Shown here: positions 2,380 to 40,184 of the stretch, piece by piece
How the letters are laid out: each line of letters begins with the position of its first letter
Numbering within the stretch: position 1 is the first letter of the stretch
Virus record (IMG/VR): IMGVR_UViG_3300042898_002521
Coordinates: 1 to 64,000 of that record
Source of the DNA: a virus
Strand: one strand, 5' to 3'
Length of the DNA stretch: 64,000 bases
The notes under the pieces: model-generated
The model's database searches: none
Told to the model about the DNA's origin: nothing
What the model saw: only the letters and a program-made list of their open reading frames with translations
Made by a program: the position numbers and the translations under genes

Positions 2380-2443
2380 TGTGACCTACCTCACATAAAT
2401 AAGTGAGAATTGTTATCGGGTTTGGCAGATACCGCGATACTCT
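2380..2443 (+). promoter_or_regulatory. CRP/GlxR-type promoter P1
   Basis: The operator TGTGACCTACCTCACA (2380-2395) matches the actinobacterial GlxR consensus with central TA. It is followed 14 nt later by TTGTTATCGGGTTTGGCA (2410-2427) and a candidate -10 TACTCT at 2438-2443. The distance from operator centre to first -10 base is 50.5 bp. Drives the 2501 gene. Confidence 0.6.
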
Positions 2444-2500
2444 TTAAAGAGTTAAGCAATACCGCTTAGCGAGAGTCACTCTAAGAGATAGGGAAACACT

Positions 2501-2833
2501 ATGAGTGAGAACACTATCGAACGCGCCGAGTTGCGCGCGTTTCTGCAAGGGCTAGGGAATAAGTTCTTTAGCGTAACTTACATCAAGCGCAAGACTGGCG
2601 AGGTGGCAACAATGACTGCCACGAACGCATACGGCAAGTTTCTTGCTGGCGGTACTCCTGCCTATGACGCTGAGGCAAAGGGACTTTATGTTCTACTTTC
2701 AACTAAGGCGGTTGCCATTGGCAAAGCTAAGGTTGACGCTGGCGAAACGGATAAGGTTCAAGGTATCCGTTCAGTAGGGCTTGAGGGCGTAATCACCGTC
2801 AAGTGTGACGGCACTCTCTACACCGTAGTCTAG
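2501..2833 (+). CDS. Hypothetical protein, possible small SH3-like barrel
   Basis: A 110-residue protein, first gene of operon 1. After a short N-terminal helix (ERAELRAFLQGL) the sequence is rich in alternating beta strands (FFSVTYIKRKTGEVATMTA, GLYVLLSTK, VITVKCDGTLYTVV). This resembles small phage proteins annotated as SH3-like barrels that bind nucleic acid or protein. That assignment is tentative; no catalytic residues are seen. The start has AAGAGATAGGGAAA upstream as ribosome binding site. Confidence 0.45.
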   Translation: MSENTIERAELRAFLQGLGNKFFSVTYIKRKTGEVATMTATNAYGKFLAGGTPAYDAEAKGLYVLLSTKAVAIGKAKVDAGETDKVQGIRSVGLEGVITVKCDGTLYTVV

Positions 2834-2841
2834 GTGACTAG

Positions 2842-2873
2842 CCTCGACTCTATCTCTCGGGATAGAGTCGGGG
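2842..2873 (+). terminator. Intercistronic hairpin after the 2501 gene
   Basis: CGACTCTATC at 2845-2854 pairs perfectly with GATAGAGTCG at 2861-2870 around a TCTCGG loop, with flanking C-G and G-U pairs extending it. No U-tract follows, so it is more likely an mRNA stabiliser or attenuator than a full terminator. It rules out the long upstream reading of the next gene. Confidence 0.5.
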
Positions 2874-2908
2874 TGGGCTACCTAGCCCCAATAACGAAAG
2901 GGAAAGTT

Positions 2909-3082
2909 ATGTTTGTAAACGGGTTCACCCTTTTACTCTGCCTAGTGTCTTTCATAGGTGGATACGGATACCGCGTGTTGGTTGTTAATTCACGCGAGTA
3001 TTACGATCAGCAACAACGCCAGCGACTACTGGCAAGTGACACGCCAATTCACGACAAACTATCTGAGGAGTGGGACTTCTAA
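2909..3082 (+). CDS. Small single-pass membrane protein
   Basis: This 57-residue protein begins MFVNGFTLLLCLVSFIGGYGYRVLVV, one N-terminal membrane span. A polar cytoplasmic-type tail follows (YYDQQQRQRLL...). The ATG at 2909 is preceded by GAAAGGGAAAG, a clear ribosome binding site; longer readings would run through the hairpin at 2842-2873. It overlaps the next gene as TAATG. Function unknown; host-envelope interference is only a possibility. Confidence 0.55.
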   Translation: MFVNGFTLLLCLVSFIGGYGYRVLVVNSREYYDQQQRQRLLASDTPIHDKLSEEWDF

Positions 3083-3246
3083 TGACTTACTACCGCAAAA
3101 TGACAGTAGTTCCAACACGCGCTGGAATTATGTACCAATGCTGTAACTGCGCGTTATCACTCTCGCCAGAGGAGGCAGATCAGCACCAAGAGGCTGACTG
3201 CCTAGCCTTGCAAGAGTTAGTGGATGCCGTAAGCGATCCACGATAA
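3082..3246 (+). CDS. Small Cys/His zinc-finger-like protein
   Basis: This 54-residue frame begins in a TAATG overlap with the preceding membrane protein. It contains MYQCCNCALSLSPEEADQH followed by a further C (EADC), a C-x2-C...H...C pattern plausible for one zinc ion. The C-terminus is helical (LALQELVDAVSDPR). It is the last gene of operon 1. Confidence 0.5.
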   Translation: MTYYRKMTVVPTRAGIMYQCCNCALSLSPEEADQHQEADCLALQELVDAVSDPR

Positions 3247-3252
3247 CCAACT

Positions 3253-3289
3253 GGATAGCCAGCCCGACTTCCCTGCGGGTTGGCTATCC
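3253..3289 (+). terminator. Terminator-like hairpin ending operon 1
   Basis: GGATAGCCAGCCCG (3253-3266) pairs with CGGGTTGGCTATCC (3276-3289), a 14-bp stem with one G-U pair. It starts 6 nt after the last stop codon. The 3' arm overlaps the first DnaA-like box. No U-tract is present. Confidence 0.55.
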
Positions 3290-3349
3290 ACAGGTTATCC
3301 CCAAGCTGTGGATAAAGTTTTCCCCAGCCTGTGGATAACCTGTGGAAAA
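3284..3349 (+). promoter_or_regulatory. DnaA-box array 1
   Basis: Two exact TGTGGATAA boxes (reverse complement of TTATCCACA) at 3307-3315 and 3330-3338 are joined by near-boxes CTATCCACA (3284), TTATCCCCA (3295) and TGTGGAAAA (3341). Neighbouring members are 11 bp apart (3284/3295 and 3330/3341) and the two perfect ones 23 bp apart. This is the density expected of a replication-origin or DnaA-titration site. Confidence 0.55.
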
Positions 3350-3350
3350 G

Positions 3351-3420
3351 TTTGTGTTGGCCGCCTTTGAGGGGGCCAATCGTCAGCTTTAAAGCTGACT
3401 CGGCCGAAGGCCGACACAAA
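3351..3420. repeat. TTTGTGTTGG/CACAAA inverted-repeat element E1
   Basis: The outer arms TTTGTGTTGGCC and GGCCGACACAAA pair over 12 positions with one G-T. Inside is the perfect 18-bp palindrome GTCAGCTTTAAAGCTGAC. First of five related elements, each placed between a terminator and a CRP-like promoter. Confidence 0.6.
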
Positions 3421-3430
3421 CAACGGGGAG

Positions 3431-3484
3431 TGTGACGAGCGTCACATAAATTGTTATCGGGTTTGGTAGGAATGGGCTTATTCT
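3431..3484 (+). promoter_or_regulatory. CRP/GlxR-type promoter P2
   Basis: The operator TGTGACGAGCGTCACA (3431-3446) is followed after only 4 nt (TAAA) by TTGTTATCGGGTTTGGTA (3451-3468) and the candidate -10 TATTCT at 3479-3484. Operator centre to -10 is 40.5 bp, exactly 10 bp shorter than in P1 and P3. Drives the DUF4192-like gene at 3525. Confidence 0.6.
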
Positions 3485-3524
3485 AGAAACAGTTGAGAAC
3501 CCGCTCAGCTAAAGAGAGGAAACT

Positions 3525-4043
3525 ATGTCTGAAATGACTAAAGTTGTTGCGTTAGCCATACTTGCTAATGACAACGGCAGGAAAGAAACAGCAATACCCC
3601 GCTTTACTGACCAAGTGAAGCGTGTTGCAAGGTTTAGCGAAGTCTTGGCTTCACTTGACCATAACTACACAGGTAAGTTTGATGTTAAGTCTGCATCTGC
3701 ACTAGCCGACATTCGTATCCGAGATGCGGTACTCCGCACCCTTTACGACTTGAAGCAAGAGGGTAACCTTGAACGGCTTACTAACTACCGCTTAACGCTT
3801 GAAACTTGGGCATCTAAGACAAGCGGTACTGCCCGTCTTGCTATCTTGGCACTTTGGGCAGGTTCGTATTGGCTCGAGGGTAATGATGCGCCAATTGAAG
3901 CCGTCCTTGAAACTGAGGACTTTGGCGAATACAGCCTTTGGCAACTGCTGGACATAGCCAAACGGCACAATGTCCCGTCCTTCGTTTGGGAGAACTCACT
4001 CAAGGAAACTCCCATTAACAAGTGTTTGCAGGGTGCGGGTTAG
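3525..4043 (+). CDS. DUF4192-family protein
   Basis: A 172-residue protein whose C-terminal half fits DUF4192, a family of unknown function confined largely to actinobacteria and their phages. Relevant segments are TARLAILALWAGSYWLEGNDAPIEAVLE and then YSLWQLLDIAKR, matching the family's A.LALLA...W..GDGA...AL and DYSLA.LL pattern. It is shorter than typical cellular members. It is a monocistronic unit between P2 and the hairpin at 4062. The start is supported by AAAGAGAGGAAACT. Confidence 0.6.
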   Translation: MSEMTKVVALAILANDNGRKETAIPRFTDQVKRVARFSEVLASLDHNYTGKFDVKSASALADIRIRDAVLRTLYDLKQEGNLERLTNYRLTLETWASKTSGTARLAILALWAGSYWLEGNDAPIEAVLETEDFGEYSLWQLLDIAKRHNVPSFVWENSLKETPINKCLQGAG

Positions 4044-4061
4044 CCCCGCAAGCAATAAGCC

Positions 4062-4087
4062 AAGCCAGCCCCTACGGGGGCTGGCTT
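4062..4087 (+). terminator. Terminator hairpin after the DUF4192 gene
   Basis: AAGCCAGCCCC (4062-4072) and GGGGCTGGCTT (4077-4087) form a perfect 11-bp stem with a TACG loop. The following GTCGCTTGAAATTTG is moderately T-rich. Confidence 0.65.
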
Positions 4088-4100
4088 GTCGCTTGAAATT

Positions 4101-4173
4101 TGTTTGTGTTGGCGGCTTCAAGGCCGCCGCAGCAGCTGCAAGCTTAATCGGGCTTTAAAGCCCGACACAAACA
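4101..4173. repeat. Inverted-repeat element E2
   Basis: Outer arms TGTTTGTGT (4101-4109) and ACACAAACA (4165-4173) are perfect complements. Internal hairpins are GGCGGC/GCCGCC near 4111-4128 and the palindrome CGGGCTTTAAAGCCCG near 4149-4164. Same design as E1. Confidence 0.6.
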
Positions 4174-4182
4174 TCGGCCTAA

Positions 4183-4246
4183 TGTGGCGTAGATCACATA
4201 AATAAATGAGAGTTGTTATCGGGTTTGGTAAATCCCATGAGACTAT
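4183..4246 (+). promoter_or_regulatory. CRP/GlxR-type promoter P3
   Basis: The operator TGTGGCGTAGATCACA (4183-4198) has one mismatch in the left arm and central TA. It is followed 14 nt later by TTGTTATCGGGTTTGGTA (4213-4230) and -10 GACTAT at 4241-4246. Spacing from operator centre to -10 is 50.5 bp, as in P1. Drives the DUF932 gene. Confidence 0.58.
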
Positions 4247-4324
4247 AGAAACAGTTAAGCAACGGCTGGCGCGAGAGATTCTCACGTATTCAGGGGTTAA
4301 CGAGAGATAAGGGGTGATTGCCTT

Positions 4325-5341
4325 ATGGCACACGACTTAGAGATGAACGCCAATGGCGACGTCGCATTTGCACTGCGTGGCGCGCCTGCATGGCATGGTC
4401 TGGCTCAACACATCTTCGATGAAGATGAACACGTCACGACCTCGCAAATGTTGGATAGCGCACTGCTGTCTAACTGGGACGTCCGACTAGAGGACGTAAT
4501 CCTGCCCGAGGGTTACACCACGAAATCACCTAGTTTCATGGTGGTTCGGAACGACGTGCTCAACAACAACACGCCCGACGTGTTGGCTGTCGTTGGTGAT
4601 CGTTATCACACCTACCAGAATGAGGATTTATTCGCATTCGGAGATAACCTGCTCGACGGTGGAGGTTACTGGGAGTCTGCTGGTGCAATTCGCAACGGGC
4701 GCACAGTGTTCGGAAGCCTTAAGCTTGGCAAAGACATTGTGATTGACCCTGAGGGTATTGGTGACAAAACCGACACCTACCTACTGGTTACCACAAGCCA
4801 CGACGGATCGAGTGCAATTCAGGCAATGACTACGCCAGTACGGGTAGTTTGCCAGAATACGCTTAACATGGCTCTTGGCTATGGCACTAAGCAATCTTTC
4901 AAAGTTCGCCACACAGCGACTGCGCAAGATCGTGTGTCACAGGCTCGCGAGGCTCTTGGAATCTCGTTTGCCTACCTTGACCAATTCGAGGCCGAGGCCA
5001 ATGCGCTATTCCAGTCGGCTATCACTGACAAGCAATTTGGTGAAATCATCGAATCGCTGTATCCGACACCAGATCGCGCAACTGCTGGTAAAGCAGTTCT
5101 CACCAAGTACGACGATAAAGTCGACACTATGTGGGAATTGTGGCGTGGCCCTACCCAACTGGGTATCAAAGGCACAGGTTGGGGCGCGATGAATGCACTA
5201 ACCGAACGTGTCGATTACTACCGACTAGGGCGCAAGGGTACTAACGCTGGTATTCTCGCCAGTGCTAGTGGGTTCGACGCTCAAGTGAACGCCGAGAAGT
5301 CGCGCATTCGCAAGGCAGTGCTCGAGACTGCTGGTCTGTAA
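4325..5341 (+). CDS. DUF932 phage/plasmid-like protein
   Basis: The 338-residue protein matches the DUF932 (phage/plasmid-like TIGR03299) family, common on phages and plasmids but without a settled function. Characteristic features are the N-terminal PAWHGLAQHI, the middle DRYHTYQNEDLFAFGDNLL, and SAIQAMTTPVRVVCQNTLNMAL at about residues 160-185. The C-terminus includes GTGWGAMNALTERVDYYRLGRKG. Length is typical. It is a single-gene unit with its own promoter and a perfect terminator, which suggests strong, separately tuned early expression. Confidence 0.85.
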   Translation: MAHDLEMNANGDVAFALRGAPAWHGLAQHIFDEDEHVTTSQMLDSALLSNWDVRLEDVILPEGYTTKSPSFMVVRNDVLNNNTPDVLAVVGDRYHTYQNEDLFAFGDNLLDGGGYWESAGAIRNGRTVFGSLKLGKDIVIDPEGIGDKTDTYLLVTTSHDGSSAIQAMTTPVRVVCQNTLNMALGYGTKQSFKVRHTATAQDRVSQAREALGISFAYLDQFEAEANALFQSAITDKQFGEIIESLYPTPDRATAGKAVLTKYDDKVDTMWELWRGPTQLGIKGTGWGAMNALTERVDYYRLGRKGTNAGILASASGFDAQVNAEKSRIRKAVLETAGL

Positions 5342-5344
5342 ACA

Positions 5345-5374
5345 ATAGTGGGGCAGGGCAACCTGCCCCACTAT
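5345..5374 (+). terminator. Terminator hairpin after the DUF932 gene
   Basis: ATAGTGGGGCAGG (5345-5357) and CCTGCCCCACTAT (5362-5374) pair perfectly over 13 bp, closed by a GCAA tetraloop. The hairpin starts 3 nt after the stop codon, and its 3' arm runs into the DnaA-box array. Confidence 0.75.
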
Positions 5375-5413
5375 CCACAGCCTGTGGATAAGTTGTGGAT
5401 AACCTGTGGATAA
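5372..5413 (+). promoter_or_regulatory. DnaA-box array 2 (11-bp phased)
   Basis: Three perfect TGTGGATAA boxes at 5383-5391, 5394-5402 and 5405-5413 are spaced exactly 11 bp apart in the same orientation. An inverted TATCCACA lies at 5372-5379. TTATCCACA is the classical DnaA-binding sequence, and one-turn phasing is what cooperative DnaA filament formation requires. Confidence 0.65.
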
Positions 5414-5418
5414 CTTTT

Positions 5419-5486
5419 TGTTTGTGTTGGCTGGCTGGCTTCAAGGCCAGCTGCGCCTAATCGGCCTTTAAAGGCCGACACAAACA
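5419..5486. repeat. Inverted-repeat element E3
   Basis: TGTTTGTGTTGG at 5419 and CGACACAAACA ending 5486 form the outer arms. Inside are CTGGCTTCAAGGCCAG and the palindrome CGGCCTTTAAAGGCCG (5462-5477). Same architecture as the other E elements. Confidence 0.6.
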
Positions 5487-5494
5487 ATCCGCTG

Positions 5495-5548
5495 TGTGAT
5501 CTATCTCACATAAATTGTTCTGGAGTCTGGCAAATACTAGGGCACAAT
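5495..5548 (+). promoter_or_regulatory. CRP/GlxR-type promoter P4
   Basis: The operator TGTGATCTATCTCACA (5495-5510) has central TA. After TAAA comes TTGTTCTGGAGTCTGGCA (5515-5532), a diverged version of the block, and a weak -10 candidate CACAAT at 5543-5548. The 40.5-bp spacing equals P2 and P5. Confidence 0.55.
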
Positions 5549-5583
5549 AAGAGAGTGAGAGATTAGGAAAGAGAGGTGATTAA

Positions 5584-5790
5584 ATGAGTCACAAAGCAAG
5601 AATACCAATGATAGTAGAGGTTACTTACGGGGGAGATGATTTCCTGACTCTAGACGAGGTAGCAAATCTGATTAACCTGACGGTTACGTCACACGATACA
5701 GATGAGCTCGACGTCTTGAATTATCATTGTGAAGCAACCTACACTGTCGATCAAGGCAGTGTGCGCCCACCTCGGGGAATCAAGGTCTAA
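5584..5790 (+). CDS. Hypothetical protein (68 aa)
   Basis: Not recognised. The 68-residue protein contains PMIVEVTYGGDDFLTLDEVANLINLTVTSHD, a beta strand plus helix. The ribosome binding site AAAGAGAGGTGATTAA precedes the ATG. It opens operon 4, which continues with a zinc-ribbon gene and the 171-residue protein at 6092. Confidence 0.5.
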   Translation: MSHKARIPMIVEVTYGGDDFLTLDEVANLINLTVTSHDTDELDVLNYHCEATYTVDQGSVRPPRGIKV

Positions 5791-5822
5791 GTAAGTGTGT
5801 CCTAGGTATGACAAAAACTGCC
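5788..5822 (+). repeat. 35-bp intercistronic direct repeat, copy 1
   Basis: The repeat begins at the TAA stop of the 5584 gene and runs through TGTCCTAGGTATGACA to AAAAACTGCC. It is identical to copy 2 (6026-6060) at 33 of 35 positions. It contains TGTC-N8-GACA dyad symmetry. Confidence 0.65.
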
Positions 5823-5854
5823 TACCAAAATAGAGGTTAGGAACAGAGGTGATT

Positions 5855-6028
5855 ATGTACAAAACAACTTGTGAGTCTTGCGAGTCTAAACTAACCGTTG
5901 ATGCCAAAACAGATACGGTTTCGTCTGGAGATCAGAAAGACGAGATTTATTACCTGCACGATGTGGGACTAGCGTATGAATGCCCCGTCTGCGGATACGA
6001 GTCAGGCTTAGTGTTAGACTCTATGTAA
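5855..6028 (+). CDS. Zinc-ribbon-like small protein (57 aa)
   Basis: This 57-residue protein has two CxxC knuckles, CESC near residue 6 and CPVC near residue 43 followed by GYESG. They flank a 33-residue acidic linker, typical of a single zinc ribbon. The ribosome binding site AACAGAGGTGATT precedes the ATG. It lies between the two copies of the 35-bp repeat, so expression of it and the next gene may be individually controlled. Confidence 0.6.
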   Translation: MYKTTCESCESKLTVDAKTDTVSSGDQKDEIYYLHDVGLAYECPVCGYESGLVLDSM

Positions 6029-6060
6029 GTAAGCGTGTCCTGGGTATGACAAAAACTGCC
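6026..6060 (+). repeat. 35-bp intercistronic direct repeat, copy 2
   Basis: The second copy again starts exactly at a TAA stop codon (of the 5855 gene) and differs from copy 1 at only two positions (T to C and A to G). The conserved placement immediately after stop codons suggests a processing, reinitiation or regulatory element rather than random duplication. Confidence 0.65.
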
Positions 6061-6091
6061 CAAATACCTAACTAGAGATGAGGAAAACAAA

Positions 6092-6607
6092 ATGGGTATG
6101 GATGTAATCGGTAAAGCCCCTGCGAACGAAACGGGGGAGTACTTTCGCAATAATGTTTGGTACTGGAAACCACTTTGGAACTACTGCGAGGTAGTTGCAC
6201 CAGAACTAACCAAGTCTGTTAGTGGATACACTAATGACGGTGACGGCTTGCAAGCCAAGGAGTCAGAGTTGTTAGCAAGACTGTTACTCAATGAAATTGA
6301 GTCAGGGCGTACTGTTTCTTACGAGGCAGAGTACCGCAAGGAACAGTCAGAACTACCGTTGGTAGACTGCAAGTTGTGCCACGCAACAGGTATTCGTGGG
6401 GCAGATAGTCCTAACGGTATTGACCAATCCGACAAGGAACTAACAGAACTACAACAATCCTTGTATGGTCGCACCTACGGGTGGTGCAACGGCTGTGATG
6501 GGGCAGGTAACAAGCCTCATTTTGGCACGCAGTACCCATTCTCGGTAGAGAACGTAAAGGAGTTTGCGGAGTTTCTGCAATACTCAGGTGGGTTCTCTAT
6601 CTGCTAA
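6092..6607 (+). CDS. Hypothetical phage protein with DnaJ-type zinc knuckles
   Basis: A 171-residue protein of unknown function. The N-terminus MGMDVIGKAP...GEYFRNNVWYWKPLWNYCE is a pattern I associate with a widespread uncharacterised phage family. The second half carries CKLCHATG and CNGCDGAG, two DnaJ-like CxxCxxxG knuckles about 40 residues apart, so one zinc ion is likely bound. It is the last gene of operon 4 and precedes a strong terminator. Confidence 0.6.
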   Translation: MGMDVIGKAPANETGEYFRNNVWYWKPLWNYCEVVAPELTKSVSGYTNDGDGLQAKESELLARLLLNEIESGRTVSYEAEYRKEQSELPLVDCKLCHATGIRGADSPNGIDQSDKELTELQQSLYGRTYGWCNGCDGAGNKPHFGTQYPFSVENVKEFAEFLQYSGGFSIC

Positions 6608-6636
6608 GCCTACGCGTTACCTAATCTCCGCGTAGT

Positions 6637-6683
6637 GAGTGGCTACCAGTCCTGAGAGGCTGGTAGCCACTCTGCTTTTTTTT
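6637..6683 (+). terminator. Strong rho-independent terminator, operon 4
   Basis: GAGTGGCTACCAG (6637-6649) pairs with CTGGTAGCCACTC (6660-6672), followed by TGC and a run of eight Ts (6676-6683). This is a textbook intrinsic terminator. Confidence 0.9.
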
Positions 6684-6755
6684 GTTTGTGTCGGCGTCGA
6701 GGCCGAAACAGCAGCTTTAAGCTGCAAAATTGGGCTTTAAAGCCCAACACAAACA
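6683..6755. repeat. Inverted-repeat element E4
   Basis: TGTTTGTGTCGG starts at the terminator T-run, and CCAACACAAACA ends at 6755. Internal units are CGGCGTCGAGGCCG, GCAGCTTTAAGCTGC and the palindrome TGGGCTTTAAAGCCCA (6731-6746). Confidence 0.6.
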
Positions 6756-6761
6756 TCGCAG

Positions 6762-6815
6762 TGTGAGGTAGATCACATAAATTGTTATGGGCTTTGGTAG
6801 AAATGACCTTACTAT
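6762..6815 (+). promoter_or_regulatory. CRP/GlxR-type promoter P5
   Basis: The operator TGTGAGGTAGATCACA (6762-6777) with central TA is followed after 4 nt by TTGTTATGGGCTTTGGTA (6782-6799) and -10 TACTAT at 6810-6815. Spacing from operator centre to -10 is 40.5 bp. The leader then has the GAGAGTGAGAGA tract also found after P4. Confidence 0.62.
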
Positions 6816-6859
6816 TTAGAGAGTGAGAGAAATACTTTCACTAGAGAGAGGTATCAACC

Positions 6860-7036
6860 GTGAGTAGTTGCCCACGTTGTATTACAGGCATAATGCCTGA
6901 CGCACCCGCCTTGTCACGCACAGATAACAAGACTCGTATCTGTTCAGCGTGTGGGTTATTAGAGGGAATTGAGCAGTTGCTTGATTGCCTGACACCACAG
7001 TCCCAATGGGGCATTACCGTTAATCAGGGGGTGTAG
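6860..7036 (+). CDS. Small zinc-ribbon protein of actinophage type
   Basis: This 58-residue protein starts at GTG 6860, with GAGAGAGG as ribosome binding site 8 nt upstream. It has CPRC at residues 4-7 and CSAC near residue 34, flanking PDAPALSRTDNKTRI. The ALSRTDNKT...CSACG arrangement is one I recognise from many actinophage small proteins of unknown function. First gene of operon 5. Confidence 0.65.
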   Translation: MSSCPRCITGIMPDAPALSRTDNKTRICSACGLLEGIEQLLDCLTPQSQWGITVNQGV

Positions 7037-7038
7037 GT

Positions 7039-7251
7039 ATGGATACATCAAACCTAACCACCGAAGCCGAACACGAGCGCGACTCTGGCTTTGAGACGTT
7101 TACAGTCCGTGCCAAACTTACTATCTGGCACACAGATACAGTCCAAGCCAAAAGTATCGAGGAGGCTTGGAAGCAAGTAGATGAGTGGGTAGCCGAGGAC
7201 TTTACCGAGGACTCGGACTGCTCTAGAAGTTGGGAGATAACCGTATGTTAA
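7039..7251 (+). CDS. Hypothetical protein (70 aa)
   Basis: Unrecognised 70-residue acidic protein. The second half (FTVRAKLTIWHTDTVQAKSIEEAWKQVDEWV) reads as a beta-beta-alpha unit like small phage proteins with a W-T-...-A-S-x-E-E-A motif. The same style recurs in the 13021 gene (YWVHAETAQEALDKW). It begins 2 nt after the previous stop and overlaps the next gene. Confidence 0.5.
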   Translation: MDTSNLTTEAEHERDSGFETFTVRAKLTIWHTDTVQAKSIEEAWKQVDEWVAEDFTEDSDCSRSWEITVC

Positions 7252-7460
7252 TGAACGCAGTAGTATGCCAAAATCAGTATCGGCTTACCAAGCAAAGTTT
7301 CCAAGAGTTAATTGAGGATCAACGGGAACACGAATACGTCGTAACTGACGAAGTCTGGGAAAGGGTTGCGGGCGAAATACTTGGTCGTATGGACAATTTC
7401 GTAGAGAACCTACTAACAGAACTAGTACACGACGTAATAGACGGAGATTACGACGAATAA
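7245..7460 (+). CDS. Hypothetical protein (71 aa)
   Basis: Unrecognised 71-residue acidic, helical protein. I chose ATG 7245 because GGGAG sits 9 nt upstream; an upstream TTG and a downstream ATG (7251) are less well placed. It overlaps the preceding gene by 7 nt. It is followed directly by the structured RNA element at 7466-7589. Confidence 0.5.
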   Translation: MLMNAVVCQNQYRLTKQSFQELIEDQREHEYVVTDEVWERVAGEILGRMDNFVENLLTELVHDVIDGDYDE

Positions 7461-7465
7461 CAATC

Positions 7466-7589
7466 TTGGTTAGGGGTAACAGAGTAATCTGCAATAAAGA
7501 ACACCCAGTCCTGTCATCGAGCAGGTACGGCTAGTACCGAGCAGACTCACAGTCACGGAAGTGGCACGGCTCTCTCTACCCCTAACCAA
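7466..7589 (+). ncRNA. Candidate multi-hairpin structured RNA
   Basis: The 124-nt intergenic segment is closed by a perfect 13-bp stem, TTGGTTAGGGGTA (7466-7478) with TACCCCTAACCAA (7577-7589). Inside are CAGA-GTAA-TCTG (7480-7491), CCTG/CAGG (7510-7525), GGTAC-GGCTA-GTACC (7524-7538) and GTCAC-GGAA-GTGGC (7552-7565). Two of the loops, GTAA and GGAA, are GNRA tetraloops. The last hairpin lies within a GAGC/GCTC helix (7539-7542 with 7569-7572). There is no start codon with a ribosome binding site inside. It ends 6 nt before the AAGGAGG of the next gene, so it could be a cis-acting leader or a processed small RNA. Confidence 0.6.
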
Positions 7590-7610
7590 CCTATTAAGGA
7601 GGAAAACGCT

Positions 7611-7787
7611 GTGGACATCAGCAAACTGTTCGAAATAGTACCAAAACTGGCAGATGAACTTGTAGAACTGCATAATGCGACAGGCATTGAGTTAGAACTG
7701 TGGGATACCGCGTATGCCCTAGTCAAGGAGTTCTACCACACAGAGGAAGTGGTACAGATCATCATCAGAGACAAGATAGTTAAGTAA
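7611..7787 (+). CDS. Hypothetical helical protein (58 aa)
   Basis: This 58-residue, largely alpha-helical protein (VDISKLFEIVPKLADELVEL...) starts at GTG 7611. A perfect ribosome binding site AAGGAGG lies 8 nt upstream, unusually strong for this region, so it is probably highly translated unless the structured RNA just upstream controls it. Unrecognised. Last gene of operon 5. Confidence 0.6.
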   Translation: MDISKLFEIVPKLADELVELHNATGIELELWDTAYALVKEFYHTEEVVQIIIRDKIVK

Positions 7788-7794
7788 GAAACCA

Positions 7795-7834
7795 CCCCGA
7801 GGTTGCCGAACTTGGTAGCCTCGGGGCTTTTTTT
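7795..7834 (+). terminator. Strong rho-independent terminator, operon 5
   Basis: CCCCGAGGTTGCC (7795-7807) pairs with GGTAGCCTCGGGG (7814-7826) over 13 positions with two G-U pairs, followed by a run of Ts (7828-7834). Confidence 0.88.
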
Positions 7835-7929
7835 GTTTGTGTTGACCCACCCACCCTAAGCCTTTAAAGGCTGTCCCTTAATGAATTCAGCTTTTAAAAG
7901 CTGAATTGGCTTTAAAGCCAACACAAACA
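7834..7929. repeat. Inverted-repeat element E5
   Basis: The longest E element. Outer arms are TGTTTGTGTTG and CAACACAAACA. Inside are three TTTAAA-centred palindromes: AGCCTTTAAAGGCT, the perfect 24-bp palindrome at 7884-7907 (AATTCAGCTTTT and its complement), and TTGGCTTTAAAGCCAA. Confidence 0.65.
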
Positions 7930-8534
7930 ATGTGACCAAAGTCACACCGCTTAAACGGCGTGTCGGCTTGACAGAGAGAGAGGAGAGTGATAGCTGGAGA
8001 GAGCCTAACAAGCTTGGTAGCCACCCCCGATTTGACAGCTAGGCTACTGCTGTGATATGGGACAAGCCTGACCGCTTGCGTGACCAGATCAGGAGACTAT
8101 CTGCCAGTCCTGTTATGTGATAAGAGATAACAGGCTTGAGAGAGTGAGAGAGTGATAACAGGCTAGTTACTAAAGTTGTTCATAGGTGGTTCAAGTGACC
8201 TGAAGTGTATTCAATCCTCTCTCTCTATCTCTATTAGTATTTGATAGCCAATTCAGGAAACCCCCCGATCTTTATTAGATTAGGTGTTGGGACACGCCCC
8301 GAAAGCTTTGAGACTCACCCCTAGCCTAAATCCTCCACCGCCACCAGATACACCGCCAAAAATAGTTTGAGAAAACTATTGACTTTTGACCCCTATGTGT
8401 GGTATGGGATTAGTCTAAATAAATGTGACGAGGATCACACTAAATCTTTTGATAATAATTATGTAATTTCACCCTTTACTGGTACGGTCTGTGTATTGGA
8501 TAAATAAAAGCTTTATGAAAGGAAGCAATCCACT
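7930..8534 (+). promoter_or_regulatory. Non-coding control region before the MoxR gene
   Basis: About 600 nt without a supported gene. It contains a CRP-like palindrome TGTGACCAAAGTCACA (7931-7946) and TTGACA at 7968-7973. There are two further promoter-like pairs with 18-bp spacers, TTGACA...TATGGG (8032-8061) and TTGACT...TATGGG (8379-8408). Several RNA-type pairings are present: ACAGC/GCTGT (8035-8053), CAGAT/ATCTG (8085-8103), and the competing pairs CAAGCCTG/CAGGCTTG (8063-8070 with 8131-8138) and CCTGTTAT/ATAACAGG (8109-8134). GAGAGTGAGAGA tracts also occur. Confidence 0.5.
8361..8439 (+). promoter_or_regulatory. Promoter with operator palindrome and CRP-like site before the MoxR gene
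   Basis: AATAGTTT-GAGA-AAACTATT (8361-8380) is a perfect 8-bp dyad whose right end forms the first two bases of the -35 TTGACT (8379-8384). The -10 TATGGG is at 8403-8408. The CRP-like palindrome TGTGACGAGGATCACA at 8424-8439 lies downstream of that -10, a position that would repress this promoter or serve a second start nearer the gene at 8535. Confidence 0.5.
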
Positions 8535-9971
8535 ATGACAATCGCACTCTACGTTGAGTCCCTGTCCGAGACCATTGGTGACAATGGCGAGGCAGGTCTT
8601 GACCAAACTATTATCGTGCCAAACTACACCGTTGGCGCAGTCCAGTTATTCCACCGCACCAGTACGGGTAAGCGTGGTCGTTCCGAGGCTTGGACACTAA
8701 CGCCTCTATCTGATCTACCTAATACCCGTGTCATTAAGAACCCTGTTGCTATCCGTCTCACCGACAATGACCACTTTGCTATTCAAGGTGGCAAGGTAAC
8801 TACTTTGGGATACAAGACCACCACCGCCTCCGATCAACTTACCAAGCTTGGTGGCGATTACACTCTTAACCACTTTGATCTAGTATCAGACTTGGTATCA
8901 CGTTTCGAGAACGCCGATAATAGCCTTGCTATCTACTTGACCGACTCTCGTTACAAGGACACCTCAATCGAGTTTCCTCCTCTAGTGCCTAACCGTGCCT
9001 TTGGTAATAGTCCTGTTAGCACTTCGATCAACCCGACAATTTCCAACGTGGCAGTCCCTAACCAGCCTGTTACACCTCGCCACACCACCACACCAAGCTT
9101 GGTAATGGAATTGGCTAGTGTGCCTGACATTAAATGGGCAAAGCAATACATCAACCGCAAGGTCGTAGGTGACGTTAGTGATTTTGATATCTTTGACGTT
9201 GCTATGCGTAATGACGAGAACGTGCTTATTACTGGTCACGCTGGTTCTGGTAAGACTTCCTCGGTTATGGCTTACGCCTCGGCTCGCGGATACCGTTACT
9301 ACAACTTCTCTTGCTCGGCTGGCACGGATACCAAGAAACTATTTGGTGGATACAACCCAAGCCCAGACGGTCACTTCCATTGGCAAGACGGGGCAATAAC
9401 AGACTTGGTACGCAACGGAGGAGTCCTGCTTATCGGTGAGATTACCTTTATGCCTGAACGTACCGCCTCGGAATTGTATTCTCTATTAGATTACCGCCGT
9501 GAAATCCAACTAACGGATAAAGACGGGGAGGTTGTCAAGGCTCACCCTGATCTGCTCATTATTGCTGACGGTAATCTTGGCTATCGTGGTACGCGCGAAC
9601 TATCCCAAGCTTTCAACGATAGGTTCACACACCACCTCGACTTCCCGTATGACCCAGACATTGAGGGTAAGCTAATCAAGAGTAAGGCAATCTTGGAAAT
9701 GGCTAATTCATTACGAGACCGTTTCGAGGAGGAGGAAATCCAGACCCCGATCTCGACTCGCTCACTTGTCGCTCTAATGGGTAACATTAACAGTCTTGGT
9801 TTGGACTACGGTATCTACGCCTACCTCAACTTATTCCCAATGCGCGAGCAAGCTAGTGTCAAGTTAGTTATTGACACCTACCGCTACAACATTGAGGAGG
9901 AACTAGGTTTGGTTCACTCTGCACCTGCCGAGCCTGTTATGGAGGTGCTTAATAATGGTAATGCCAACTAA
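8535..9971 (+). CDS. MoxR/CobS-type AAA+ ATPase
   Basis: This 478-residue ATPase has a roughly 200-residue unassigned N-terminal part and then an AAA+ core. Walker A is GHAGSGKT (residues 234-241), Walker B is VLLIGEI at about 297-303, and a sensor region SQAFNDRFTHHLDF follows. A C-terminal helical lid contains TPISTRSLVALM. The nearest families are MoxR and CobS, which remodel protein or metal-insertion complexes together with a VWA partner, and exactly such a partner is encoded next. It opens a long rightward operon after the 7930-8534 control region; ribosome binding site is GAAAGGAAG. Confidence 0.85.
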   Translation: MTIALYVESLSETIGDNGEAGLDQTIIVPNYTVGAVQLFHRTSTGKRGRSEAWTLTPLSDLPNTRVIKNPVAIRLTDNDHFAIQGGKVTTLGYKTTTASDQLTKLGGDYTLNHFDLVSDLVSRFENADNSLAIYLTDSRYKDTSIEFPPLVPNRAFGNSPVSTSINPTISNVAVPNQPVTPRHTTTPSLVMELASVPDIKWAKQYINRKVVGDVSDFDIFDVAMRNDENVLITGHAGSGKTSSVMAYASARGYRYYNFSCSAGTDTKKLFGGYNPSPDGHFHWQDGAITDLVRNGGVLLIGEITFMPERTASELYSLLDYRREIQLTDKDGEVVKAHPDLLIIADGNLGYRGTRELSQAFNDRFTHHLDFPYDPDIEGKLIKSKAILEMANSLRDRFEEEEIQTPISTRSLVALMGNINSLGLDYGIYAYLNLFPMREQASVKLVIDTYRYNIEEELGLVHSAPAEPVMEVLNNGNAN

Positions 9972-11820
9972 GAAACCTGCTAAGTCTGCCGATACTGGCA
10001 ACCTGTACCAAGACTGGTATGACTACAACAGCACCAACTCTAGCGAGGGTCTATCCCAGATCGAGCGTGAGGAACTCAAGGATTACCTTGTGGCTAAACA
10101 GGCTAAGAAGCTTGCTAGGTTTCAGGCTATCGCTGGTGTGTACCAGACTGCGGATAGTGTGCTTACCAAAGCTAGTATTACCGTTACTGCTGGTGACTTT
10201 AGTAACCTAGAGTCAATGGGTGAAGCACCTGCGTTCAATGACGGCAAGACTATCTATCTCAACACAAACGTCTTAGCCGAGATTGACGATAACAGTCTCA
10301 TTAGCCTTAACGGTATCAACTACCACGAAGTTGCTCATATCCTGTGGTCACCGCGAGGCAACTCCGAGTTTGGGCGCAAGGTTACTAAAGGTGGATACCA
10401 AACCTCTTTCAATATCCTTGAGGACTTGCGTATCGAAACTCTTATGACCGCGCGTTTCCCAAGCACTACCCTGTCACTTACCCAGTCTGTTTTGACCTAC
10501 ATTATGGATAACCCAGACCCAAGTGACTCGTTTCCTCTAATCCGAGGTCGGCGTTACTTGCCTATCGAGGTGCGCCAACTATCTGCTGATCTCTATGTAG
10601 GTCGGCACGGCTCAACTCACGCTAACAATGTCGCTCGTATCGTAGATGAATACCGACTACTTACTTACCCAAGTGATTATGAACGTGGTTACGATCTCAT
10701 TGTTGAGTTTCATAATCTGCTCAAGCTTGCTGACCCAAAGAATAAGACCGAGGGACAATGTGGCTCACGCCCAATGCTCAAGTCTGGCAGACCTGAAAGT
10801 AACGATAAGCAAAGCAATATTGCTAATCGCGCTAAGGGTATGGACAAGAAAGCCGAGGATATCCCACCCAACGACAAGTCAGGTGCAGGTGCAGGTGACG
10901 AGGGTGAGTCCCAAGAATATGACCCACTTCAAGAACGTACCGAAATGGATACCGAGTTTGCTAACGTAGTGCGCGAGGCTATCAAAACCATTATGAAGTC
11001 CAAGCAAGTCAAGACCGAGGCTCGACAACTACGTTCTGCTATCCGTGAGTCTGACCGTGCAGGTCGTACAGACCTCAAGGCAACCTCCGATCTACTCCCA
11101 GTAGATAACGTGTACCGCGTGGCAAGCAAAGCTTTCGCACAGGAACTTAGCAAACTGCGTATTGACAGCGACCCACATTGGGATATTGAGAAACCTGTTG
11201 GTCGGCTCAATATCAACCGTGTTATGAATATGGATATTAACGATATCAACACGGTCTTTGACGAGTGGCGTGAGGGGCGTGACGAGTTTAATATCGAAGC
11301 CGTTATTATGTGCGACACATCAGGCTCTATGGGCAACGTAATCAAGGAGGTCTCTCAATCTATGTGGGCGATCAAACGTGCGCTGGAGGAAATTGACGGC
11401 AAGGTTACGGTCATTGGCTTTAGTGACAAGACCAAGCTTGTTTATGGAAGCAACGAACGTGCCACTAGCCAATACCGATTTTGGTATGACGGTGGAGGTA
11501 CTGACCCACTTGACGCTTTACTTGACGCGGAAGCAATACTTGAGTCCTCTCGGCGCAAGACTAAGTTGTTATTCGTAATCACAGACGGGGAGTGGTCACG
11601 GTCTGACGATTGTGACTCTACTATTAAGCGTATTAACAATATTGACGGCACTATTAGTCAGATTGTATTCATTAGTAGTAGTGAATACATTATGGAACAG
11701 ACCGTGACGGACAGGGAAGCCACAATGAAGCGTTACCGTCATCACGCTCACGCCATTGAGTTAGTCTCTAAGCCTAATGAACTTGTTAGTGTTGCCCGTA
11801 ACATCTTACGGAGTCTCTAA
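9955..11820 (+). CDS. VWA-domain protein with HExxH metallopeptidase motif
   Basis: This 621-residue protein combines two features. One is YHEVAHILWSPR (HEVAH from residue 124), a zinc-peptidase HExxH signature. The other is a C-terminal von Willebrand A domain with an intact MIDAS DTSGS at 454-458 and downstream GGGTDP and FVITDGEWS. A charged linker (about 260-330) separates them. This order fits the DUF2201-like metallopeptidase/VWA family more than CobT. It overlaps the AAA ATPase by 17 nt, with GGAGG 9 nt before its ATG. The pair probably forms a MoxR-VWA chaperone or protease machine; its target is unknown. Confidence 0.8.
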   Translation: MVMPTKKPAKSADTGNLYQDWYDYNSTNSSEGLSQIEREELKDYLVAKQAKKLARFQAIAGVYQTADSVLTKASITVTAGDFSNLESMGEAPAFNDGKTIYLNTNVLAEIDDNSLISLNGINYHEVAHILWSPRGNSEFGRKVTKGGYQTSFNILEDLRIETLMTARFPSTTLSLTQSVLTYIMDNPDPSDSFPLIRGRRYLPIEVRQLSADLYVGRHGSTHANNVARIVDEYRLLTYPSDYERGYDLIVEFHNLLKLADPKNKTEGQCGSRPMLKSGRPESNDKQSNIANRAKGMDKKAEDIPPNDKSGAGAGDEGESQEYDPLQERTEMDTEFANVVREAIKTIMKSKQVKTEARQLRSAIRESDRAGRTDLKATSDLLPVDNVYRVASKAFAQELSKLRIDSDPHWDIEKPVGRLNINRVMNMDINDINTVFDEWREGRDEFNIEAVIMCDTSGSMGNVIKEVSQSMWAIKRALEEIDGKVTVIGFSDKTKLVYGSNERATSQYRFWYDGGGTDPLDALLDAEAILESSRRKTKLLFVITDGEWSRSDDCDSTIKRINNIDGTISQIVFISSSEYIMEQTVTDREATMKRYRHHAHAIELVSKPNELVSVARNILRSL

Positions 11821-12560
11821 TGACTTGTGGCATAGGCGTTAAACCGAGTCGTGAAATCTCGGCAAGGACTTCCATAATAAGCACTTACTTCCTTTCAGCT
11901 TTAGAAGTACCTGCGCTTATGCCACTTACTAAACTTAGTACGCCCAACTCCCATTTACGAACGGAACGCCTGTCTGAACGCGCTATGCGTAAGAGTGACT
12001 GTGGTTCACTATTAGAACTTGGGACTCTGGGCGTACTAACAAGCTTAGTAGGCGCAACGTACAACCTGCGTTTGCATATTGCAACAATGACCGTGCCTCT
12101 GCGCCTACTAACTAACTTGGTATCAACAACGGTATCTATCCGAACCACAGAGAACACGCTACGACAGGTTGTCAGGGTTGGTAGTGCTAGATCGCTCTCT
12201 GTTGATACCAAACCCTTTAACCACGCACGTTCAGGAGTATCTTGCCTGTGTCTGGTAAGTAAAGGTCGTGGTAACTACGTTCCGCTTTGCTTATCTATGA
12301 GGTGTTTCCCTCAAATTGGAAACCGTGTTAGACGAAGCGAGCATAATAGGAGTCTCAACTTACGACCTTTACCTCGCGTGGTTAATCCCATTACTACTGG
12401 TGAGAGTGACGATACAACTACTGGTCTGTTCCAAGATGTCCTAAAGCTTACCCAACTTAGGTTGTGGTCTGCTTGTGACCGAGAGAACCACCGAACGGTT
12501 TATCCTCCGCTCTCACCAGTAATAATGCTTATCCCAACACAAACTTTTGCAGGTGCATAA
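11820..12560 (+). CDS. Open frame over the structured RNA, doubtful protein
   Basis: A 246-codon frame runs through the structured region. It begins in a TAATG overlap with the VWA gene, with GGAG 6 nt upstream, and ends in a TAATG overlap with the 12560 gene. This coupling argues for translation, and a chance frame of this length is unlikely. Against it, the predicted protein has very few lysines, is packed with Arg, Ser, Thr and Leu, and shows no domain. The long paired arms also dictate much of its sequence. I regard the RNA as the likelier product; both could be true. Confidence 0.2.
   Translation: MTCGIGVKPSREISARTSIISTYFLSALEVPALMPLTKLSTPNSHLRTERLSERAMRKSDCGSLLELGTLGVLTSLVGATYNLRLHIATMTVPLRLLTNLVSTTVSIRTTENTLRQVVRVGSARSLSVDTKPFNHARSGVSCLCLVSKGRGNYVPLCLSMRCFPQIGNRVRRSEHNRSLNLRPLPRVVNPITTGESDDTTTGLFQDVLKLTQLRLWSACDRENHRTVYPPLSPVIMLIPTQTFAGA
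11827..12526 (+). ncRNA. Candidate giant structured RNA (about 700 nt), GOLLD/ROOL-like class
   Basis: The stretch folds into a consistent set of non-crossing long helices. H1 is GTGGCATAGGCG 11827-11838 with 11914-11925 (one G-U). H2 is 11935-11946 with 12028-12039 (perfect 12 bp). H3 is 12045-12056 with 12100-12111 (perfect 12 bp). H4 is 12117-12128 with 12200-12211 (perfect 12 bp). H5 is 12217-12226 with 12376-12385 (10 bp), enclosing H6, 12259-12269 with 12362-12372 (11 bp). H7 is 12390-12406 with 12510-12526 (16 of 17). Shorter hairpins fill each domain, for example TTGCA-TAT-TGCAA (12072-12084), GTTTCC/GGAAAC (12304-12323) and CGCTTT/GAAGCG (12283-12339). Such density of long perfect helices is not expected in protein-coding DNA. 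The size and phage setting recall GOLLD and ROOL RNAs; homology is untested. Confidence 0.7.
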
Positions 12561-12769
12561 TGGCTCTAATACATTCAAGCGGATTAGTTATTACAGAACG
12601 GTCAGAACATCTACCAGAATATGACGGTGACTCTAAGTATGTCGTATGGAACTTATCCGAGGCAGAGCCGAAGGCAAGCTTCACCGCTAGTTATCTACCA
12701 ACTTTGATTAGATATCTTGATATTAACTACACTATTGCTAATAAATACAAACCCGAGAGAGGTATCTGA
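12560..12769 (+). CDS. Hypothetical protein (69 aa)
   Basis: Unrecognised 69-residue protein (MALIHSSGLVITERSEHLP...). AGGTG lies about 6 nt before the ATG, giving it its own ribosome binding site immediately after the structured RNA. Its TGA overlaps the ATG of the next gene. Predicted mixed alpha/beta; no motifs. Confidence 0.5.
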   Translation: MALIHSSGLVITERSEHLPEYDGDSKYVVWNLSEAEPKASFTASYLPTLIRYLDINYTIANKYKPERGI

Positions 12770-13344: not shown

Positions 13345-13584
13345 ATGCTGTACCGAGTTGCGCTAGGAATAGTGCTTAAAGACTTACGGATTAAACAGGG
13401 TTGGACTTTGCGAGAGTTATCTACCAAAGCTCTTATGTCTCTAGGCTACCTATCCGAGATAGAAAGAGGAGTCAAAGAGGTGTCCAGCGACCTTATGTTT
13501 GGACTATGTGAAGCGTTAGACTCTAACGTGCCTGACGTATTAGATCAAGTATCAACCCTAATGAGAGAGAGAGTAACAGTATGA
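13345..13584 (+). CDS. ClgR-like XRE-family transcription regulator
   Basis: This 79-residue DNA-binding protein carries one Cro/CI-type helix-turn-helix: LRIKQGWTLRELSTKALMSL, then GYLSEIERGVKEVSSDLMFGLCEAL. The LGYLSE(I/V)ERG.KE.SS..L..(I/L)CEAL signature is that of ClgR, the actinobacterial activator of clp protease genes. The protein consists of the HTH alone. A phage copy could retarget host Clp proteolysis or control phage genes. It overlaps the next gene by ATGA. Confidence 0.8.
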   Translation: MLYRVALGIVLKDLRIKQGWTLRELSTKALMSLGYLSEIERGVKEVSSDLMFGLCEALDSNVPDVLDQVSTLMRERVTV

Positions 13585-14005: not shown

Positions 14006-14326
14006 ATGGCAACTAGCCCCGAAATGAAACAGTTTGTAATAGATGTAGCAGACATTATTACTGAATGTAGTAACCTGCTTATCTCAAAGCAAAACGATTA
14101 TGGCCCTCTAAACATAGCGAACGCCCCTGGCGGAGCATTAAATGGTTTAAGAGTCCGTATCTTTGATAAAGTATCTCGCATTAACAATTTAATAGATGAA
14201 AACAAAGACCCAAAGCACGAGTCGCTGAGGGACAGCTTCCTAGACTTAGCCAACTACGGCATTATTGCTTTAATGGTTATTGACGGAGTATGGCCTAAAC
14301 TAGAAAACGGAGAGAACAATGGCTAA
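14006..14326 (+). CDS. DUF1599/Nmad1-like protein
   Basis: This 106-residue protein matches the DUF1599 (nucleotide modification associated domain 1) pattern: SKQNDYGPLNI, then RIFDKVSRINNL, then SLRDSFLDLANYGIIALM. The family is common in phages and has been proposed to act in nucleotide or base modification; its chemistry is unproven. I used ATG 14006, directly after an (AG)n tract serving as ribosome binding site, rather than an upstream GTG. It overlaps the next gene by 8 nt. Confidence 0.7.
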   Translation: MATSPEMKQFVIDVADIITECSNLLISKQNDYGPLNIANAPGGALNGLRVRIFDKVSRINNLIDENKDPKHESLRDSFLDLANYGIIALMVIDGVWPKLENGENNG

Positions 14327-14591
14327 AAAAGATAAGAAGAAAAAGAGTGATAACATCACCATTGAGAAAGTAAGCCTTGAGTTTATTCTTAAGCTTAATA
14401 ACGACAACCCTTTAGTTGAGTTTTTTAACACGTTACCTGATGAAGCAAAGCAGGAAATACTAAAGGGAACTATTTACAGCTCTTTAATAAACTCAAAGGC
14501 TATGCACCTATTAAACGCTGACAACAGTTGGGCAGAACTTAGTCTTGTCCCACTTGATACCTGCACCTGTCCACCAGAGGAGGAGAAATAA
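14319..14591 (+). CDS. Hypothetical protein (90 aa)
   Basis: Unrecognised 90-residue protein. It has a Lys-rich N-terminus (AKKDKKKKSDN), an all-helical middle (EFFNTLPDEAKQEILKGTIYSSLI) and a C-terminal CTCPPEEEK. The basic tail suggests nucleic-acid or membrane contact. It overlaps the genes on both sides (8 nt and TAATG). Confidence 0.5.
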   Translation: MAKKDKKKKSDNITIEKVSLEFILKLNNDNPLVEFFNTLPDEAKQEILKGTIYSSLINSKAMHLLNADNSWAELSLVPLDTCTCPPEEEK

Positions 14592-14797
14592 TGAGAACGG
14601 CACTGTGGATAATTGCGTTTGCCCAGATGTATAACATTGTAGAGGCTTGGGTCTGGGCAATACATTGGAGACTCAAAGGAAAGAAAAAGTTTGAGGAGCG
14701 AATGAAAGACCGAGATCGTTCAACGGATTTAGAAAGTTTATTGGCTCTTTACAGCAACGACATTGACAAGCTTGAGAAGAGAAAAAATGGAAAGTAA
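14591..14797 (+). CDS. Small membrane-associated protein
   Basis: This 68-residue protein has a hydrophobic N-terminal segment (RTALWIIAFAQMYNIVEAWVWAI) followed by a strongly basic region and a coiled-coil-like tail (LESLLALYSNDIDKLEKRKN). It is probably anchored or peripheral on the inner side of the membrane. Function unknown. Confidence 0.5.
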   Translation: MRTALWIIAFAQMYNIVEAWVWAIHWRLKGKKKFEERMKDRDRSTDLESLLALYSNDIDKLEKRKNGK

Positions 14798-15143
14798 TAC
14801 TTTGTTCTGTATCTTTTGTAGTGCTGACTTGGGAGAGGAAGCCACGCATTGTGCGTCTTGCTCTGAATACAAAGGTGTTATGACCTACGAGGACATAGTA
14901 AAACACTATCCTGAATTGGCTAAGGAACTTGTTGAGTCTAATGATCTTGAGGAATACTTTGAGTGGTTAAACACAGGGTTTACTAACAAGTGGATTACCC
15001 CACCGTTTTGTATGACTCACGACGGAGACCCATACCTTACCGAGCAAGAGAGTAATGATTGGGAGGAGGGCGGAGACCCTTGCGCTCACGTTGTTAAGTT
15101 AGCTTTAGAAACCGATTACTACAAGGAGAACCCAAATGGGTAA
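14787..15143 (+). CDS. Zinc-ribbon hypothetical protein (118 aa)
   Basis: The 118-residue protein opens with MESNTLFCIFCSADLGEEATHCASC, a CxxC...CxxC zinc ribbon. A helical middle (YEDIVKHYPELAKELVESNDLEEYFEWL) follows, then a C-terminal part FCMTHDGDPYLTEQESNDWEEGGDPC with two more cysteines. I chose ATG 14787 (GAAGAGAAAAA upstream) because it begins at the ribbon; an upstream start would overlap the previous gene more. Function unknown. Confidence 0.6.
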   Translation: MESNTLFCIFCSADLGEEATHCASCSEYKGVMTYEDIVKHYPELAKELVESNDLEEYFEWLNTGFTNKWITPPFCMTHDGDPYLTEQESNDWEEGGDPCAHVVKLALETDYYKENPNG

Positions 15144-39964: not shown

Positions 39965-40029
39965 TGCCAGTTCTCTCCTAAGGGCAATACATAAAGTTTA
40001 CCCGAAGAAAGAATAATAATCTTGGCTTG

Positions 40030-40101
40030 CTCCCCGCCGTGGACTTGAACCACGAACATTTCGATTAACAGTCGAACGCTCTGCCATTGAGCTAGCAGGG
40101 A
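40030..40101 (-). tRNA. tRNA-Asn (anticodon GTT)
   Basis: On the minus strand all arms fold. Acceptor is TCCCTGC with GCGGGGA, D stem GCTC/GAGC, anticodon stem TTCGA/TCGAA with loop CTGTTAA (anticodon GTT), and T stem CGTGG/CCACG with loop TTCAAGT. The CCA end is not encoded. It lies 4 nt downstream of the tmRNA-like RNA, so both are probably cut from one transcript. Confidence 0.92.
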
Positions 40102-40105
40102 TTAG

Positions 40106-40184
40106 TGGAGCAGTCGAGAGTCGAACTCGATTCCTAACATTTCCGACATGCGGAGTTAATGCCAGTCGATACCAAATCTGCCCC
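40106..40184 (-). ncRNA. tmRNA-like tRNA-like domain without tag-coding region (79 nt)
   Basis: The RNA reads GGGGCAGATTTGGTATCGAC at its 5' end, like actinobacterial tmRNA (GGGGCTGA..GGTTTCGACT). Its 3' end is TAGGA, then a TCGAG/CTCGA T stem with loop TTCGACT, then CTGCTCC-A. The acceptor stem includes G3-U70, the alanine identity pair, and the discriminator is A. There is no D stem. Where tmRNA has the long mRNA-like insert, this RNA has only TTAAC/GTTAG and TCCG/CGGA stacked helices closed by CATGT. No tag reading frame or pseudoknot is present. CCA is not encoded. Confidence 0.68.

Follow-up and report, generated by a model that had tools for sequence, protein, structure and literature searches.

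A modular RNA of reorderable beads in the MoxR–VWA operon of a phage, distinct from GOLLD and ROOL by the tests made

GOLLD and ROOL are phage-borne RNAs that form RNA-only homo-multimeric cages (PMC12286853). GOLLD is located near tRNA islands and is conserved in its 3' half, while ROOL possesses pseudoknots and intertwined 5' and 3' regions (PMC12286853). Structured RNA units in tandem are represented by the type III antitoxins, which are short repeats (pseudoknots of 36 and 45 nt in two solved cases) placed upstream of a nuclease toxin (PMC4627078).

The locus described here belongs to a stretch of 64,000 nucleotides (the window), which forms part of an 87.5-kb IMG/VR virus record. The presence of tail-sheath and baseplate proteins in the record indicates a contractile-tailed phage. 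The host is probably an actinobacterium, as the relatives of its VWA protein are found in Gordonia (Bendigovirus) and Brevibacterium phages. The original prediction placed a giant structured RNA directly after a MoxR–VWA gene pair and inside an operon, with an unbroken frame of 246 codons running through it. The placement proved correct and the frame is real, with its two ends exactly at successive TAATG overlaps. Two close relatives carry the RNA, with about 90–91% nucleotide identity: L002/L004 (G001) and L003/L005 (G002). In a further relative, L009 (G003), whose VWA protein is 65% identical, a strongly diverged RNA follows the VWA gene directly and has the same GGAG...TAATG start. The GGAG...ATG start at the VWA stop is kept in all four array-bearing phages. 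The elements of the locus are the following:

8535–9971, + strand: MoxR-like AAA ATPase gene, in the same operon as the array (context)
9955–11820, + strand: VWA (CobT/DUF2201-like) protein gene, in the same operon as the array (context)
11810–11822, + strand: Shine-Dalgarno-like GGAG, with an ATG that overlaps the stop codon of VWA
11820–12560, + strand: bead-array RNA with the 246-codon frame running through it, from TAATG to TAATG
12560–12769, + strand: small gene whose start is the stop of the 246-codon frame (context); not found in L009's phage

The array RNA (window 11820–12560, + strand) has a length of about 740 bases and consists of six consecutive beads, D1–D6, of 67–169 nt each, closed by helices of 10–14 bp and separated by linkers of 9 nt after D1 and of 3–5 nt at the remaining junctions. 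Beads D2–D6, five of the six, possess a 2x3 internal loop, 5'-AC/5'-CUC, immediately on top of the closing helix; D1 lacks it. A C-loop identity was considered for this loop but not adopted. The layout of D2–D6 is uniform: closing helix, AC on the 5' side, CUC on the 3' side, and an inner helix of 2–5 bp, the first pair of which varies by bead (G-C, G-U or A-U; U-A in the window's D2). A solitary bead of the same construction is located about 4 kb upstream of the array. The beads are as follows:

11827–11925, + strand: bead D1, AC/CUC motif missing; contains CUUACUUCCUUUC, a segment also present in L009
11935–12039, + strand: bead D2, 12-bp closing helix and AC/CUC loop
12045–12111, + strand: bead D3, 12-bp closing helix and AC/CUC loop; missing from L009
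12117–12211, + strand: bead D4, 12-bp closing helix and AC/CUC loop; 9 double-change pairs; placed after D5 in L009
12217–12385, + strand: bead D5, 10-bp closing helix and AC/CUC loop; 15 double-change pairs
12390–12526, + strand: bead D6, longest closing helix and AC/CUC loop; nearly invariant in close relatives
7466–7589, + strand: solitary bead, intergenic between two small genes; 13-bp closing helix and AC/CUC loop

The original prediction had proposed a member of the GOLLD/ROOL class. The structured RNA itself is borne out by covariation and stands on firmer ground than first proposed, whereas the class assignment finds no support in the Rfam models or the architecture. A search of Rfam 15, at the gathering score or at E ≤ 10, gave no meaningful match to the array, and likewise, under both thresholds, nothing meaningful for the solitary bead, the L009 array or the candidate hairpin of L115. 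The GOLLD model (RF02032) gave only chance matches of 10 and 4 bits, elsewhere in the phages. The ROOL model (RF03087), searched without a positive-control match, gave none at E ≤ 10 in the window's record, and none appeared in the all-Rfam scans of the window. GOLLD shares with the array the character of a large ornate phage-borne RNA of 700–800 nt, but here independent, reorderable beads are built on an AC/CUC base, inside an operon and away from any tRNA island; no such island lies near the array, and the only tRNA of the window, at 40029–40101, is 28 kb off. ROOL is likewise a large phage RNA with many stems, yet pseudoknots and intertwined ends are ROOL features, and the array does not match RF03087. 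As no known family was matched, the array is regarded as a large phage RNA of a new family with an unusual reorderable bead architecture, neither GOLLD nor ROOL by the tests made. An RNA-only multimeric assembly, functionally similar to GOLLD or ROOL though unrelated to them, would agree with the phage-borne nature, the similar size and the many helices, given that both families form homo-multimeric cages (PMC12286853); with neither model matched, such an assembly is considered unlikely.

Beside tRNA-Asn, at 40103–40184 on the – strand, lies an 82-nt tRNA-like piece matching both ends of tmRNA (RF00023, 61.7 bits). Its whole middle, the tag included, is missing, which makes it a candidate phage mini-tmRNA, and its acceptor stem contains the alanine-type pair G3-U70. 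G001 and G002 carry the piece in the same 82-nt form (56.7 bits), and it was not found in G003 or G004.

Ro60 is a VWA-containing protein with Y RNA. The likeness to the present locus, a VWA protein gene beside a structured RNA, hints at a type of partner. In contrast to Ro60, the phage VWA protein is CobT/DUF2201-like, paired with MoxR, and common in phages without the RNA.

All helices of the original prediction are present, at 11827/11925, 11935/12039, 12045/12111, 12117/12211, 12217/12385, 12259/12372 and 12390/12526. Its description of four consecutive domains closed by 12-bp helices holds for D2, D3 and D4, where the helix is perfect and exactly 12 bp long, but not for D1 (12–13 bp with a G·U pair), D5 or D6 (18 bp with one mismatch, or 14 bp counted from the mismatch to the AC/CUC loop). 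In the single-sequence fold, the closing helix of D5 encloses an 11-bp helix, 12259–12269/12362–12372, and the D5 interior is the most conserved among the beads. The region 11810–12570 folds at –252 kcal/mol, compared to –205 ± 6 in dinucleotide shuffles (z = –8.2). Perfect helices of at least 10 bp with a span of 45–180 number six in the array, against a mean of 0.09 and a maximum of 1 in 400 dinucleotide shuffles; the window as a whole averages 0.38 per 740 nt under span limits that are a little wider. In sliding 300-nt z-scores the array signal is weak, and the fold of the whole array is the better measure. Comparable excess folding energy occurs elsewhere in the window only at about 3.0–6.9 kb, the region of the intergenic cassettes.

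These cassettes, repeated at 2380–8450, contain inverted repeats TTGTTTGTGTTGGC...GCC(G/A)ACACAAACAA around 70–100 nt. After the repeats come TGTGA-N6-TCACA boxes and a stretch of conserved sequence, ATAAATTGTTATCGGGTTTGG. Many genes in related phages are likewise preceded by the half-site (C)AACACAAAC. At 3282–3358 and 5370–5422, clusters of TTATCCACA-like (DnaA-box-like) repeats form strong hairpins. Nowhere in the window is the signal of local folding stronger than here (300-nt z = –13.5 at 3151–3450), and the clusters possibly represent an origin region.

The comparison between phages indicates that the beads behave as separate units. The bead order in L009 is D1-D2-D5-D4-D6: D4 and D5 are swapped, D3 is missing, and an extra small hairpin lies between D5 and D4. 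A D4 model built without L009 (from the window, L004 and L005) found the D4 of L009 as its sole match in 350 kb, with 64.7 bits and E = 2.8e-14; the sequence weights of this model are independent of L009, while its base-pair assignment was first seen in the four-sequence alignment. The recovery of D4 in its swapped place by an L009-free model indicates that the beads are autonomous.

Alignment of the homologues demonstrates that pairs co-vary, even against L009, in which the frame is broken. In a set of only three distinct sequences, the 52 pairs of D5 are formed in 97.4% of cells, compared to 28–47% with one strand slid, and 15 of them have changed on both sides, a covariation reached by none of 500 shuffles. 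For D4 the 28 pairs are formed in 97.6% of cells, compared to 30–56% in slid controls, with 9 double-change pairs. Compensatory changes in D4 and D5 thus exceed both shuffled and slid controls, and double changes are also present in the closing helices of D1 and D2. Covariation is not claimed for the D2 interior and D6, where the MAFFT alignment across L009 is poor. The inner folds of D2, D3 and D6 are accordingly predictions, as L009 has no D3 and the D2 and D6 interiors align badly. Where only one side of a D5 pair has changed, the result is a G-U pair on the + strand, which shows the + strand to be the RNA. Taken as a whole, 11820–12560 is almost certainly a conserved structured RNA.

Tandem units with a common element that are gained, lost and reordered are also what would be expected of a processed antitoxin RNA of the type III toxin–antitoxin kind, or of hairpins acting at the DNA level as recombination sites. 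The likeness to ToxI and CptI is limited to tandem structured RNA units: those arrays combine short pseudoknot repeats with a nuclease toxin, whereas the present beads are non-identical and 67–169 nt long, and Pfam and PHROGs searches of the flanking genes recognised no toxin gene beside them. A role of the DNA only would leave the covarying interior pairs unexplained, and the + strand G-U changes in D5 mark an RNA. Both possibilities are accordingly held to be quite improbable.

The long open frame requires separate consideration. At the local stop rate, 246 open codons have a probability of about 1.2e-6, and an ordinary protein-coding gene with incidental structure would account for a frame open in three phages, with TAATG at both ends and a Shine-Dalgarno-like sequence. 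Coding-constraint tests among the close relatives are weak, consisting of a slight third-position excess of changes (P = 0.04), in the direction of a protein, and an absence of new stops (P = 0.20). The dN/dS of the frame, however, is 0.54–0.63 against 0.12–0.15 for VWA, and its coding score of –0.07 is the lowest of 30, the other 29 ORFs (at least 200 codons) ranging from 0.006 to 0.248. The frame product has no family match in Pfam or PHROGs. In L009 the frame is broken by five stops from codon 148 on. D5 starts there in codon phase 0 instead of phase 1 as in the window, so that the peptide is entirely different although the base pairs are kept. Neither purifying selection on amino acids nor a conserved frame is therefore observed, and the feature that is kept is the base pairs and not the amino acids, the reverse of homologues with preserved protein and broken helices. 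A conserved protein was rejected on the dN/dS, the coding score and the differing frames of D5, and a protein-coding gene is deemed very improbable.

The distribution of stops suggests another reason for the open frame. Stops in D5, by frame, number 2/7/0 in the window and 0/2/3 in L009, and D5 is stop-free only in the frame used by each phage, which argues that stops have been removed for the passage of ribosomes and not for a peptide. The window lineage gives strong evidence of stop removal and L009 moderate evidence, since 148 open codons there have a probability of about 2.6e-4 at the same stop rate and the ancestry is partly shared with the window lineage. Ribosomes thus probably traverse the RNA. 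The oddity of the frame, raised in the original prediction, is in this way explained in part, the frame apparently being open to let ribosomes pass and not to encode a protein.

The AC/CUC base is not confined to the array. A descriptor scan of the 64 kb returned exactly six sites, D2–D6 and 7466–7589, against a random expectation of 0.35. Among 1024 pairs of 2-nt and 3-nt motifs atop long helices, AC/CUC is the extreme, with 18 matches (including homologous copies and a doubtful hairpin in L115, and representing six independent bead families) compared to a mean of 0.88 (sd 1.2) and 9 for the next pair. In L009's phage the loop is found in D2, D4, D5 and D6 and in a bead at the site equivalent to 7466. 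Two adjacent beads, 5 nt apart, occupy that site, and the neighbour bead has UC/CUC. The L115 hairpin (13461–13524, – strand), intergenic in L009's phage, is a 14-bp hairpin AGGTGCTCCTCAAC with AC/CUC, followed by a T-rich tail; as a possible small bead or chance terminator, it is left out of the evidence.

Among the records compared, the array is carried by only four contigs, in three lineages. Covariance models of D5 (R2, 47 records) and D4 (R1, 35 records) recover exactly these four known carriers and one 13-bit chance match. BLAST of the array region and its translation against phage records gave no match, nor did the VWA profile against genome contigs. Beyond the known phages, DNA-pattern scans gave chance-like matches only, both in viral contigs (linker ACTAACAAGCTTAGTA, one D4 and two D5 motifs) and in genome contigs (one D5 motif). 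In L010 (VWA 43%) the site after the VWA gene contains a simple hairpin only, and in most other relatives it is occupied by a short hairpin or by a normal gene. The ancestral state of the site was apparently a hairpin, which one phage lineage would have elaborated into the array.

Short hairpins with pyrimidine-rich loops (CCUUCC type) right after the VWA stop were observed in L010 (5172–5222), L014, L016, L021 and L024. These loops resemble a segment within D1.

No promoter (sigma-70 types scanned) or terminator around the array was recognised beyond chance. The best explanation would be a large modular noncoding RNA, transcribed as part of the phage MoxR–VWA operon. As to its function, a modular protein-docking RNA is the preferred reading, held with somewhat less than even confidence. 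The common base element, namely the closing helix, AC/CUC loop and second helix, would serve as docking site for one shared partner, most likely a phage or host protein, and the array would act as a multivalent scaffold or decoy, to which the bead interiors, D5 above all, would add specific contacts. With the RNA embedded in a polycistronic message, the frame entered at the VWA stop/start overlap would stay stop-free to let ribosomes through, and the peptide would be a by-product.

The main rival is a cis-acting mRNA element, whose beads would serve to insulate or stabilise parts of the operon message, or to control, via ribosomes that must melt the structures, how much VWA is made relative to the downstream products. 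An array with no recognised promoter or terminator of its own is fitted equally well by such a role. Some cis role is indeed favoured by the operon embedding and the start at the VWA stop, since the array is intergenic within one operon and extends from a Shine-Dalgarno-like ATG at the VWA stop to the start of the following gene. The open frame, the simple hairpins after the VWA gene in many relatives, and the position of the solitary bead about 20 nt upstream of a start codon point in the same direction. The genes on the regulated side, by contrast, change across lineages while the beads remain: the small gene downstream of the array is missing in L009, where two unrelated genes are found instead, and the genes on both sides of the solitary bead differ as well. 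The beads thus do not depend on any single regulated gene, and this speaks against gene-specific regulation. Nor would a stability hairpin need an interior as elaborate and conserved as that of D5. A cis element is regarded as somewhat less probable than the docking RNA, which is preferred.

Concerning the partner of such a docking RNA, MoxR–VWA pairs are common in phages without the array, so that MoxR–VWA is not obviously the partner. The search for a protein specific to array-bearing phages gave only small, fast-evolving candidates. A lysine-rich small protein (14319–14591, + strand) and a zinc-ribbon-like protein (14763–15143, + strand) have homologues, among the records compared, only in array-bearing phages, and may be taken as weak leads.

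Few RNAs of such size and complexity are known, and the phage-borne GOLLD and ROOL are still without an assigned function. The coexistence of a strong RNA structure with a stop-free frame means that gene finders will annotate the locus as a protein. The array may, as a tentative proposal, represent a new class of phage RNA machine, in which shuffleable modules on a common base, arranged as an array and as single beads, would be translated through to give a meaningless peptide. Its new architecture of reorderable modules with a common base motif makes the function testable module by module.
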